A DNA stretch of 64,000 nt, taken from assembly GCA_002844335.1 (NCBI GenBank), contig CP019155.1, forward strand, positions 62,001 through 126,000, read 5' to 3'. The translations under genes were made by a program, and so were the position numbers. The DNA comes from Haloarcula taiwanensis (lineage in GTDB: Archaea > Halobacteriota > Halobacteria > Halobacteriales > Haloarculaceae). Shown here in pieces: positions 14,072 through 18,393 of this stretch (positions within the stretch are counted from its first letter, which is position 1; every line of letters starts with the position of its first letter). Below the pieces are notes generated by a model. It was not told where the DNA came from. It saw only the letters and a list, made by a program, of their open reading frames with translations, and searched no databases.

Positions 14072-15028
14072 ATGAGCCCTGCATCTACATCGAACAGGTC
14101 CCCCGAATCTTCCGATCCTGTGTCGGGCTATCGCGACACGCTCAGGTCGGCCTATCACGATTATATCGGCGAACCGGCGAAAGAGCGAGACATCTATGTC
14201 GGGTTTGGCCTCTTCTTCGCTGGGGTCACGCTTGCCGTTGTCGGATTCTGCCTCTTTTTGTACAGTAACGTGCTTGAATCCGGGAGTACACTTTACTGGC
14301 AGATCCGAGAGGTCGCACTCGTCGTCGGGTTCATCGGGCTTCCCTCCGTGCTATTGAGCGTCGTCGTGCTCCTCCCGGTGGGTTTCAAGACCCGGTTTGT
14401 TAGTGCCGCTGGCGCGGTCTTCTGTCTCGCTGCAACTGTAATTCTGGTTGATGTCTTCCCGTACGGATGGACAACCAGTGAGGGTATCAATGGGAGCGTC
14501 TGGACGATTAGCGTCTACGCTACTGGCCTAGTTACGCTTGCAGCTTCGACAGGAGCGGCACTGGTCGCGCATTATCTTGAGCAGGCGACAGCCCCAAGCG
14601 AATCGACCGAATCGCTTGAGTCAGCCGAGAGTGAATCAGAGTCGGTCAGCAAAGCCGATGTCGACAACGACATACAGCAGGCTCTGGAGGGGGCGGAGCT
14701 ATCGTGGGGTGGCGTCGAACAACAGCCAAAGACGAAGCGGCTGAATCTGGATATGCCGGACACAGACTCGGACCTCGACCGGACGGCCATCGAGAACTCC
14801 GAGGCGACCACGACACGGGCCGACAGCAACGACGTTGACGACGCAGTAGACGGACTCAGGCAACTGCAGGGAGGCCAATCAAAGACGGACCGAGGTACTG
14901 GAACCGAAGAGCAGGTCAACGCGCTTACCGAGTTCCGGAATGAACAGAGTGAAGGCGATGATGTGGAAACTGGTGTCGAGGAGCAGAAGGGACTTATGAG
15001 ACGTCTTCGGTCATTATTATTCGATTAA
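14072..15028 (+). CDS. Membrane protein with long acidic cytoplasmic tail, upstream of the actin homologue
   Basis: A 318-residue protein. Residues about 45-165 carry four hydrophobic helices, the first being 'IYVGFGLFFAGVTLAVVGF'. From about 175 the chain is hydrophilic and rich in Glu, Ser and Asp, with the motif 'ALEGAELSWGGVEQQP' (about residues 205-220) and a basic C-terminus 'GLMRRLRSLLFD' that could lie on the membrane. I think this belongs to a haloarchaeal permease-like family (DUF7139, recall only). It lies 165 bases upstream of the actin-type gene on the same strand. A membrane protein with a long tail next to a filament gene is a natural candidate for an anchor, but that is inference. 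Confidence 0.75.
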   Translation: MSPASTSNRSPESSDPVSGYRDTLRSAYHDYIGEPAKERDIYVGFGLFFAGVTLAVVGFCLFLYSNVLESGSTLYWQIREVALVVGFIGLPSVLLSVVVLLPVGFKTRFVSAAGAVFCLAATVILVDVFPYGWTTSEGINGSVWTISVYATGLVTLAASTGAALVAHYLEQATAPSESTESLESAESESESVSKADVDNDIQQALEGAELSWGGVEQQPKTKRLNLDMPDTDSDLDRTAIENSEATTTRADSNDVDDAVDGLRQLQGGQSKTDRGTGTEEQVNALTEFRNEQSEGDDVETGVEEQKGLMRRLRSLLFD

Positions 15029-15193
15029 TCCGTCTGACTGAGCCACATGACATCTACGGCGTCAGTCTGGGAGCGTAGGTTTTACCGTGTTAGTAGACTC
15101 CTACGCACCGTCGCTGTAGTGTTGGTACGTAAGTTGTAATTGGTTCTATATTATAGGCTAGTTTTTTCAACTTGGTGGGAGGAATACAACTGT

Positions 15194-16231
15194 ATGCCCC
15201 AAGGTCTCGATGTTGGTACGATGAACCTCCTGTCTGCACGTCAAGACGGTAACGAGACAGTGTTCGTGCAGCAGCGGAACTCCTTTGTTGAAATTGACTA
15301 CAGCGACATGGCCGAACAAATGCTGTCGCGAAGTGACGTTCTCCACATCCGCAAAGATGATCGGGTCTATATCGTTGGTGATGACGCCCTGAATTTCGCG
15401 AACATCTTCAGTGAGGAGACACGGCGACCGATGCAGGCTGGGATTCTCTCAAGCGACGAGCAATCAGCCATTCCGATGATTAAGCTCATTACTGAACAGG
15501 TAGTCGGACAACCGGAGTATCCGAACGAGCGGCTGTTTTTCTCGGTTCCTGCGGACCCTATCGACGCCGATGTCTCGACGCTGTATCATCAAAAGACCAT
15601 TGAGTCATTGCTTACTGATATGGGATACAGCCCGGAGCCGATCAATGAGGGGATGGCTGTTATCTACTCCGAGCTAGCAAATCGTGAGTTCACCGGCCTC
15701 GGTATCAGCTTCGGCGCAGGGATGACCAACGTCTGTCTGTCGTACTATGCAGTCCCCGTCATGAAGTTCTCTATCGCACGCGGTGGTGACTGGATTGACG
15801 AGCAAGCTGCACAGGCGACTGGCACGCCCGTCGATAAGGTTACCTCGGTAAAAGAGGAAGACTTCGCGCTAAACTTCGAGACGGATGTCGGTGGGATTGA
15901 GGGTGCGCTGAGCATTTATTACGATAATCTCCTCGACTACGTCATCGAGAACATCATCAGTGAGGTTGATGAAGAGGATGTCGAGGAGGGACTGGATGTC
16001 CCGGTTGTCGTAACTGGCGGGACATCGAGTCCTGACGGCTTTGAAGAGCTGTTCGCCGAACGGATCAACGACTCTGAGATTCCGTTCTCGATTAGCGATG
16101 TCCGTCAGGCTGAGAACCCACTGTATAGCGTTGCACAGGGAGCGCTCGTCGCAGCGCGGTCGGAAGAAGAGCGGGAAGGGCAAGCCGAGCAAGCCGAGCA
16201 GGCCGAAGAGCCGGACACCACCGCCGAGTAG
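15194..16231 (+). CDS. Salactin/volactin-type actin homologue
   Basis: A 345-residue protein with the actin/HSP70-type ATPase core. The phosphate-1 loop is '[13 protein letters not shown]' at the N-terminus, phosphate-2 is '[16 protein letters not shown]' near residue 180, and the adenosine motif is '[17 protein letters not shown]' near residue 275. It lacks the FtsA 1C-type insertion and C-terminal amphipathic helix. It matches what I know of salactin of Halobacterium, a dynamically unstable actin, and volactin of Haloferax, needed for disk-shaped cells. The start at 15194 places the phosphate-1 Asp at residue 6. An acidic tail with three AEQ repeats ends the chain. It likely forms filaments in the cytoplasm and acts in cell shape or partition. 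Confidence 0.85.
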
Positions 16232-16315
16232 CGGGTATTCACCGATCGCACTACTGCTCGCCTGCGTCAGTTGGGACCTGCTCCCCGCTCCAGGCGATAC
16301 ACCCGACAGTGGGCG

Positions 16316-16789
16316 TTACTCAGTTTCCTCCCCGTTTTCGACGGCATCAGTGTCTGTGTTTTGATTGTTCCCATCGCTCTCATCATATTTGGCTGTGGGT
16401 TCGCCACTCAGTTCGCGTTCACTCTCGTCAATAACGCGGTTCAATTCGTCAGCAGCGTCCTGTTGGAACGTGTTCGCATCAGATCCCAGAGAGATGCCGA
16501 CTGAAACACCAGCCTGTTCAAGCGAGAGCTCTGGTTGGTCTGTGGGCTCGTCACGTTCCGGAATCGGGACGCTGGGTATTCTGTCAGTATTTTCCGGCTT
16601 GCCGAGGTTAGAGTCGGGATGTTGGTTGAACCGGGTAAATGCGAATTCCCAGGACTCTGGAGGGGTGGCCTCGGTGTGATGTGACGCAGAGATGCCTGCG
16701 AAGCCGCACGATTCACAGACGATAGCTGTTTGATCAGCGGTCGCAAGCGTATATGTGCTGAGGTCTGAATCGCAGCGGGGACACCACAT
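16316..16789 (-). CDS. Zinc-ribbon protein with acidic linker
   Basis: A 157-residue protein. The N-terminus has two knuckles, 'MWCPRCDSD' and 'VCESCGFAG', forming a TFIIB-like Cys4 zinc ribbon in residues 3-33. The rest is low complexity, rich in Glu, Asp, Gln and Ser, with a short hydrophobic-heptad stretch near 'QDAADELNRVIDESERELS'. It is convergent with the actin gene and divergent from 16871. There is no nuclease or helicase domain. It may bind nucleic acid or act as a protein-protein adaptor; that is inference. Confidence 0.75.
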   Translation of the reverse strand: MWCPRCDSDLSTYTLATADQTAIVCESCGFAGISASHHTEATPPESWEFAFTRFNQHPDSNLGKPENTDRIPSVPIPERDEPTDQPELSLEQAGVSVGISLGSDANTFQQDAADELNRVIDESERELSGEPTAKYDESDGNNQNTDTDAVENGEETE

Positions 16790-16870
16790 ACCAGAGTATG
16801 CGTGTCTCTGCTATACAATGGTTCCGTCAGTTTTCGCCGTCCAGGGAACGAGTTATGAGATGGGCGGCCA

Positions 16871-17566
16871 ATGTTAGAGGCGATGCCGGAGATCGAGATT
16901 ACGGACACACAACAGGCGGATTTAACATCGGTGCAGGAGGATCTCGAAGACGCGTTCATCAAGACGTACGGTCATATTCGTACGCAGGATGTTGTTGCCT
17001 ACCTCCTCGATACGTACACACCGCCGGACCGGCTCGAAGACGAGCAAGGCCTGAGTCGTCCCGACTACGAGCGAATCGCCGAAGCTGAGTATCCGGAACT
17101 CCAGCGCATCGCATCCGATGTGCCAGAGGTTCCCGGAAGTGGTATTGAAGCCGACGAGATGCGAGGGAAACTGCTCTCGGCGCTTGGGACGAGTGAACTC
17201 GCGACGCGCCTTGCAGACATCGAAGCCGACACGAGCGCGAGCAAAGGTACTGAAGAGGGGGAAACTGGTACAGATAGACCTGGAGAGACGTCGAGCGACG
17301 GGCACGGTGGAGCACACGGCGGTGCCCAGACTGGTCCAGCATCCGCTGCCGTCGAAACCGATGACGCAGCCGAACCAACCGAGGCAGCCAACAACAGTCC
17401 GGGAGATGCCCTTTCGGTCGCGAACCGTTTACTGACCGAACATGATGAAAAGTGGACTCGGTCGGACGAAAACGACGAACCATACGAAGTCACACTCCCC
17501 GATGGGTCGACAGTGAGCGCGCGGACAAAAGACGACGTGCGAAAACTGCTGTTCCAAAACTACTGA
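16871..17566 (+). CDS. Uncharacterised haloarchaeal acidic protein
   Basis: 231 residues from 16871, or 227 from the ATG at 16883. The first 115 residues are predicted helical ('DLEDAFIKTYGHIRTQDVVAY' style surface with Leu spacing). A Gly/Ala/Thr/Glu-rich linker follows at about 120-180. The C-terminus forms a compact domain ending 'DGSTVSARTKDDVRKLLFQ'. No family recognised. It is divergent from the zinc-ribbon gene with an 80-base shared promoter region, which places it in the actin neighbourhood. A coding gene is well supported by composition, but its role is unknown. Confidence 0.7.
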   Translation: MLEAMPEIEITDTQQADLTSVQEDLEDAFIKTYGHIRTQDVVAYLLDTYTPPDRLEDEQGLSRPDYERIAEAEYPELQRIASDVPEVPGSGIEADEMRGKLLSALGTSELATRLADIEADTSASKGTEEGETGTDRPGETSSDGHGGAHGGAQTGPASAAVETDDAAEPTEAANNSPGDALSVANRLLTEHDEKWTRSDENDEPYEVTLPDGSTVSARTKDDVRKLLFQNY

Positions 17567-17628
17567 TCGGACACGCACCGGGAAACGACCATCTCCCCAA
17601 CGCGCTCTGATGGGGCCACGTCGACGGC

Positions 17629-18393
17629 TCACGACTCGCTGTCTACTGTGTCCTCGAGGTAGCCGACTCGACACTGCGGACAGACATCACCGGCAAAGAA
17701 CGACGACTCACTCACAGGGAGTTCGAACGCACACCTTGGGCACGTATATGTGGGATCCGAGTCGGTTGTAGTATTCTCTCCGTCGTCCACTGTGGGCGTG
17801 CTCCGGTCCCGGTCGTTTCTACTATCTGGCCCTTCGGATGTTTCAGACGGTGAGTGTGGAGTATCTGTAGCAGCATCGATGATGACTGCATCGTCGCTGT
17901 TCAGCGGCGTGGTGCCGGCGTCGGCTGGCTCCTGTGGTTCTGAATCAGACAGGATCACAGCATCGTCAGTCCGTTCTGGTGGTGTCGGTGGAGTCTCCGT
18001 CGTAGACGCATCACTCACTTCCGTATCCGAGGGTTGGTCCCCGACCGTGTCCGGCGCAGTCGACGCTGATTCGGGCGACTCGGTCGGGTCCGGTTCCGCC
18101 GCCTGCGCCCTGTCTGTCGCTTCGGTCTCGTCTGCTGCGTTCTCTTGCCGTTCCACTGGCTGCCGAGTCTCGGCGCTGTATTCGGCCTTGTCCGGCAGGC
18201 CGTCATTTGCGTCAGATTCTTCGATAGTGGATATCAAACCGTGGTTCTCAGAGATATTGCGGATATAGCCACATCGCTGGCAAGACCGGTATTCACGAAC
18301 GGTTAGAACAGTGCCGCGCTCGCCTTCATCGTACGACTCCTCTATCTTCGAGGCTCCGAAATCGTGTCCGAATAGTTCACAGCGCATCCCCAT
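17629..18393 (-). CDS. Double zinc-knuckle protein with long acidic linker
   Basis: A 254-residue protein. The N-terminus 'MGMRCELFGHDFG' leads to 'SCQRCGYIR', giving a first Cys2-type knuckle near residues 5 and 38-41. The middle (about residues 55-215) is a Thr/Glu/Asp/Pro-rich linker of repeated 'DDAVI' blocks ('TDDAVILSD', 'SDDAVIIDA'). The C-terminus has 'YTCPRCAFELPVSESSF' and 'DVCPQCRVGYLED', a complete Cys4 ribbon. This matches a haloarchaeal family I recall as DUF7093. It converges with the gene at 16871. Two metal sites on a flexible tether suggest an adaptor; function unknown. Confidence 0.75.
   Translation of the reverse strand: MGMRCELFGHDFGASKIEESYDEGERGTVLTVREYRSCQRCGYIRNISENHGLISTIEESDANDGLPDKAEYSAETRQPVERQENAADETEATDRAQAAEPDPTESPESASTAPDTVGDQPSDTEVSDASTTETPPTPPERTDDAVILSDSEPQEPADAGTTPLNSDDAVIIDAATDTPHSPSETSEGPDSRNDRDRSTPTVDDGENTTTDSDPTYTCPRCAFELPVSESSFFAGDVCPQCRVGYLEDTVDSES

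Follow-up and report, generated by a model that had tools for sequence, protein, structure and literature searches.

Salactin, a haloarchaeal actin from Halobacterium salinarum, forms pole-anchored, dynamically unstable filaments, and its gene neighbourhood is poorly conserved even within Halobacterium (PMC10746226). Volactin, VolA (HVO_2015) of Haloferax volcanii, has been called the only identified actin homologue of that species (PMC7617734); it polymerises dynamically in vivo, and imaging finds its filaments bound to the membrane via their tips, with binding factors suggested and left unidentified (PMC10869688). Volactin also changes with cell shape, growth phase, compression and tissue-like development (PMC10869688, PMC7617734). 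The publication on VolA describes the filament, its main text naming neither neighbour nor partner; partners are proposed here. We examined a volactin gene and its neighbours at positions 14,072 to 18,393 of a 64,000-nucleotide stretch of Haloarcula taiwanensis DNA (GCA_002844335.1, contig CP019155.1, positions 62,001 to 126,000; hereafter the window). The volactin gene lies between genes for a membrane protein of the DUF7139 family and a small zinc-ribbon protein, and beyond these are genes for an acidic protein of 231 residues (U231) and a DUF7093 protein. The inheritance of these genes strongly supports the conclusion that volactin, one subtype of DUF7139 and the zinc ribbon are functionally coupled.

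Co-inheritance was assessed over 232 haloarchaeal genomes of at least 90% completeness, in which volactin was called over its curated cut-off, the DUF7139 subtype at E <= 1e-40 (weakest call, 4e-84) and the zinc ribbon at E < 1e-15. Positive genomes numbered 137, 137 and 134, respectively. Volactin and the DUF7139 subtype occurred together in 136 genomes and were jointly absent from 94, leaving one genome with each alone; for volactin and the zinc ribbon, 133 genomes had both, four volactin only, one the zinc ribbon only and 94 neither. U231 accompanied volactin in 116 genomes and stood without it in one, with 21 genomes having volactin only and 94 neither. The corresponding Fisher tests give values of 6e-59 or below but take no account of how the genomes are related, and we therefore took changes of state as the main evidence. 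Ten genera are mixed for volactin, and the partners follow it throughout them except in genomes G164 and G263 and in G275, where the zinc ribbon is missing. The lone volactin of G164 is a fragment of 116 residues. This remnant (G164:C1:1837267-1837596, L306) has the look of a module in recent decay.

In Halorubrum, volactin is separate from the DUF7139-zinc-ribbon pair, at distances of about 80 kb to more than 1 Mb where both lie on the same contig. On an rpoA1 tree of 30 Halorubrum genomes, where support at several nodes is no higher than 50-80, volactin-free genomes occupy at least five positions (G195, G299, G273 and G269 as a group, then G169, G223, G276 and G281), and each of them is also without the DUF7139 subtype and the zinc ribbon. 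Since a single deletion cannot take unlinked genes, this joint loss points to a shared function. The DUF7139 subtype and the zinc ribbon are thus likely partners of volactin.

Gene order was compared at 60 volactin loci, drawn from nine families and some 50 genera, with 17-18 kb of context. The volactin-type DUF7139 gene lies immediately upstream of volactin on the same strand in 56 of the 60, and a zinc-ribbon gene falls within the fetched region in 53, being downstream and convergent in 49. A set of 80 named loci, the majority taken with flanks of 3 kb, departed from this order mainly in Halorubrum or at contig ends. Class-wide coordinates placed DUF7139 immediately upstream of volactin in 112 of 136 genomes, spanning 43 genera, and 21 of the 24 split cases were Halorubrum. 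The full order was also seen in other Haloferax species, the H. volcanii genome itself serving as a control scored with the volactin, DUF7139, DUF7093 and salactin models. When neighbours were clustered, volactin was represented in 46 genera, DUF7139 in 41 genera (nine families) and the zinc ribbon in 35 genera (eight families); the next-best neighbours, which by eye are Dph2-like and methyltransferase-like, reached 25 genera in four to five families. Background neighbours at 25 genera indicate that some ancestral order is kept generally, and the DUF7139-zinc-ribbon pair exceeds this background. Chance synteny as an explanation is weakened by this control and by the co-loss of unlinked genes. 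The original prediction had set synteny in other genera as its check beforehand, and for DUF7139 and the first zinc ribbon the arrangement holds well beyond the genus.

The 318-residue protein encoded upstream of volactin belongs to DUF7139 (PF23600, 135 bits against a cut-off of 30, E 2e-39). Its AlphaFold2 model predicts membrane helices at residues 38-65, 73-100, 105-128 and 136-173, with predicted local distance difference test (pLDDT) scores mostly of 85-96, and the Lys plus Arg content per loop (0.56, 1.84 and 0.04) predicts that both termini are inside the cell. The tail is acidic and mostly of low confidence or disordered, with short model helices at its motifs and at the C-terminus, where the last helix (residues 306-317) lies within GLMRRLRSLLFD. 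The original description of a four-helix membrane protein with a long acidic tail and a basic amphipathic end is borne out. A fold assignment was dropped, Foldseek having found nothing at E <= 0.001 and VIA-align having returned common helical bundles alone (around Z 8-10.6). DUF7139 is named in no open-licence PMC paper, preprints being outside that search.

Because DUF7139 is nearly universal (225 of 232 haloarchaeal genomes, one to six copies each), mere presence of the family says little; the family as a whole was rejected as a partner, since it also occurs in volactin-free genomes and only the subtype tracks volactin. We defined this subtype by a profile built from volactin-linked copies, with the window copy in the building set; that copy scores 379 bits over positions 5-298, tail included. 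Volactin-type copies score 310-440 bits over their full length and paralogues 45-108 bits, mostly over the membrane domain alone, a wide gap with one intermediate copy (L137, 155 bits). Two tail motifs distinguish the groups: VD.xV.GL..LKGG occurs in 54 of 62 volactin-type proteins and none of 90 paralogues, and DDQ...L..LR in 59 of 62 and none of 90. A third, WGGV, is more widely distributed (62/62 and 30/90). The C-terminal 12 residues carry a mean charge of +2.3 and are amphipathic in the volactin type, versus -1.0 in paralogues, whose tails are DUF7140, DUF1508 repeats or short. Paralogues such as L199, L200, L201 and L205-L208 are proteins of about 520-950 residues with repeated DUF1508 domains, and those ending in DUF7140 have a conserved, YCGYHGERMDDM-like C-terminus. 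From these sequences, we read DUF7139 as a putative membrane platform with interchangeable cytoplasmic tails.

The protein encoded convergently to volactin contains a single CPRC...CESC ribbon within a conserved N-terminal segment of about 55 residues (C-x2-C...C-x2-C...H...ESWxxAxxRF), followed by an acidic tail. Neither it nor U231 matched a curated family above cut-off. The ribbon resembles those of TFIIB and RpoM weakly, a likeness that does not settle what it does; it is probably a regulator or adaptor. U231 has conserved N- and C-terminal segments in the alignment, and its gene is oriented divergently from that of the zinc ribbon; searching PDB sequences with U231 returned nothing useful. 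A Rho_N domain (best E 7e-8) is present in two of ten aligned U231 relatives (L137 and L145), a hint of possible nucleic-acid binding. Haloferax is one example of a group without U231. Many genomes of family f3 carry it at a distance from volactin, yet there too it is confined to volactin genomes. The 254-residue protein is DUF7093 (PF23373, 73.3 bits against a cut-off of 27, E 5e-20), with CxxC pairs near both ends. It lies directly beside the module in Haloarcula only, other genera being mostly without it in the fetched regions, and the window genome has a further copy elsewhere, two in total. We rejected DUF7093 as a volactin partner on account of this genus-level neighbourhood and second copy. 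Of the zinc-ribbon and acidic neighbours originally put forward as partners, the 157-residue ribbon therefore stands, U231 is retained as volactin-specific but optional and often unlinked, and DUF7093 falls away as a Haloarcula neighbour.

The 345-residue actin is volactin (PF25216, 446.9 bits against a cut-off of 35, E 6e-134, profile positions 1-321 of 321) and is 79% identical to volactin of Haloferax denitrificans. Its start at ATG 15194 fits the conserved N-termini, the mechanical open reading frame opening upstream at TTG 15140. The claim that it carries all three nucleotide loops was correct for phosphate loop 1 (GLDVGTMN, with its aspartate kept) and the adenosine loop (VTGGTSS) but not for phosphate loop 2, where the aspartate of 8r2n (FIDIGGGTS) aligns with serine S172 (GISFGAGMT). 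The serine is invariant in 15 aligned volactins and, judged by this alignment, is a trait of the whole family and no argument against membership. A separate salactin is encoded elsewhere in the same genome (G000:C1:1974161-1975168, L305); read by eye, it has Lys in phosphate loop 1 (VKLGST) and Asn in loop 2 (VNMGST). The altered phosphate motifs of volactin and salactin raise the question of how these two actins hydrolyse nucleotide. The H. volcanii genome also scores above cut-off with the salactin model, in contrast to the published description of volactin as its only identified actin homologue (PMC7617734).

We think it fairly probable that the locus represents a core volactin module, in which a dedicated DUF7139 adaptor tethers filaments, the zinc ribbon is a second partner and U231 is an accessory. 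We infer that the DUF7139 subtype is the filament anchor, that it binds volactin and anchors filament tips, and that the zinc ribbon and U231 have roles alongside it. In such a module, volactin would be the dynamic filament and the DUF7139 membrane domain a platform common to several paralogues; the two tail motifs and the basic amphipathic end of the volactin type would bind volactin, and this binding would tether the tips or sides of the filament to the membrane. The second partner, the near-obligate zinc-ribbon protein, would most likely act as a regulator or as an end-binding adaptor, and U231 would be a lineage-dependent accessory. Several observations weigh against this explanation. The pLDDT of the DUF7139 tail is about 40-60 over much of its length, and a Foldseek fold search of the PDB gave nothing at E <= 0.001. 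One Halorubrum genome (G263; 180 contigs, 95% complete) keeps the partners with no volactin found, and three genomes (G221, G222 and G275) carry volactin with the zinc ribbon undetected. Moreover, co-inheritance demonstrates functional coupling and leaves the step unspecified. A bolder extension of the proposal, that haloarchaea possess a co-inherited actin module in which a membrane adaptor family with interchangeable tails captures filament tips, by a way of tethering unrelated to MreCD/RodZ, FtsA or ParR, and that U231, in lineages that have it, may also link filaments to nucleic acid, is one we advance tentatively, as possible but doubtful.

Linkage and co-loss would be equally expected if the DUF7139 protein were an upstream sensor or signalling partner that steers assembly with no tether, responding for instance to tension in the membrane, to the state of cell shape or to the growth phase. 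Volactin does respond to growth phase and compression (PMC10869688, PMC7617734), and paralogues bear other tails (DUF7140, DUF1508 repeats), as members of a receptor family might. However, Pfam gives the volactin type no recognisable domain of a sensor or an enzyme. Its short linear motifs and its basic amphipathic C-terminus resemble binding elements more, and we consider this explanation unlikely. Less probable still is a role in DNA positioning after the manner of ParMRC, in which volactin filaments would push or hold DNA, with U231 and perhaps the zinc ribbon as DNA-binding adaptor and DUF7139 as the membrane foothold. The ParM-like dynamics of volactin (PMC10869688), the Rho_N domain of some U231 members, the weak likeness of the ribbon to those of TFIIB and RpoM and the megaplasmid location of the Haloarcula locus would all suit it, yet no iteron-like, centromere-like array was found beside the actin gene at three loci, 21 volactin genomes, Haloferax included, are without U231, the published volactin phenotypes concern cell shape, and in many other genera a multi-megabase contig holds the locus. 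U231, the candidate for a ParR-like adaptor, has no family match in its window copy and a poor model (pLDDT 58). Finally, it is highly improbable that the genes merely travel together as an uncoupled ancestral cluster that chance has preserved and that single deletions have removed. Adjacency in most lineages would be expected of such a cluster, and the Dph2-like and methyltransferase-like neighbours are likewise kept in 25 genera, but joint absence in at least five Halorubrum lineages despite separate loci is not so explained, nor is the presence of the Haloarcula module together on a megaplasmid, away from its usual neighbours.

The window lies on a megaplasmid-like, 525-kb contig of the Haloarcula genome. 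The nearest database records are megaplasmids of Haloarcula marismortui and H. sinaiiensis (about 0.4 Mb, 85% identity), which carry near-identical loci; the matched span there is annotated as five hypothetical proteins. All five open reading frames originally predicted at this locus were confirmed (Table 1). Some Haloarcula genomes have two or three volactin-DUF7139 pairs on separate contigs (G086 C3, C4 and C5; G112 C6 and C7), the volactin copy on G086:C4 being broken. In family f3, which includes Natronorubrum, proteins of about 1000-1240 residues begin with a volactin-like actin domain (over 400 bits), continue as a long coiled coil and end in a glycine-rich hydrophobic hairpin. These would apparently be actin domains joined to their own stalk and membrane anchor; their genes are found elsewhere than the volactin locus, in some cases close to genes for ribosomal proteins.

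Table 1. Features of the volactin locus, by window position, and actin-domain fusions, by position in their own loci
Feature	Coordinates	Strand	Basis
Volactin-type DUF7139 membrane protein, 318 residues, candidate membrane adaptor	14072..15028	+	PF23600 E 2e-39; volactin-linked profile 379 bits
Four membrane helices, residues 38-173, both termini predicted cytoplasmic	14183..14590	+	AlphaFold2 helices; loop charges
Tail motif 1, VD.xV.GL..LKGG, residues 254-268, volactin-type-specific	14831..14875	+	54/62 volactin-type, 0/90 paralogues
Tail motif 2, DDQ...L..LR, residues 279-289, volactin-type-specific	14906..14938	+	59/62 volactin-type, 0/90 paralogues
C-terminal basic amphipathic helix, residues 306-317	14987..15022	+	Model helix; charge versus paralogues
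Volactin, 345 residues, actin-fold filament protein	15194..16231	+	PF25216 446.9 bits
Small zinc-ribbon protein, 157 residues	16316..16789	-	Alignment; co-occurrence with volactin
U231, acidic, 231 residues, optional fourth component	16871..17566	+	Alignment; co-occurrence with volactin
DUF7093 double zinc-ribbon protein, 254 residues, probably outside the module	17629..18393	-	PF23373 E 5e-20
Family f3 fusion proteins	L153:6812-10363, L154:6479-9898, L155:8239-11280
Family f3 fusion proteins	L156:8385-12092, L157:6684-9857, L158:1470-4952

This analysis names two near-universal candidate partners of volactin and one optional one, in genetically tractable species. With these candidates, the anchoring and regulation of an archaeal actin become directly testable. 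The window actin belongs to the same Pfam family as VolA of H. volcanii over its full length, and salactin represents a separate family, whose model (PF25229) gives 17.5 bits with the window protein, under the curated cut-off of 27.1. The membrane domain of the window protein likewise belongs to an existing family, DUF7139 (PF23600), of which one subtype alone has the volactin-specific tail. In bacteria, the actin filament MreB is accompanied by dedicated membrane proteins, MreC, MreD and RodZ, encoded nearby. Pfam gave no match to MreC, MreD or RodZ at the locus, the fold search with DUF7139 being likewise without a significant match, and volactin differs from MreB in favouring disks, not rods (PMC10869688). 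In principle, the volactin module would work like MreB and its membrane proteins, as an actin filament paired with a dedicated membrane protein encoded nearby.

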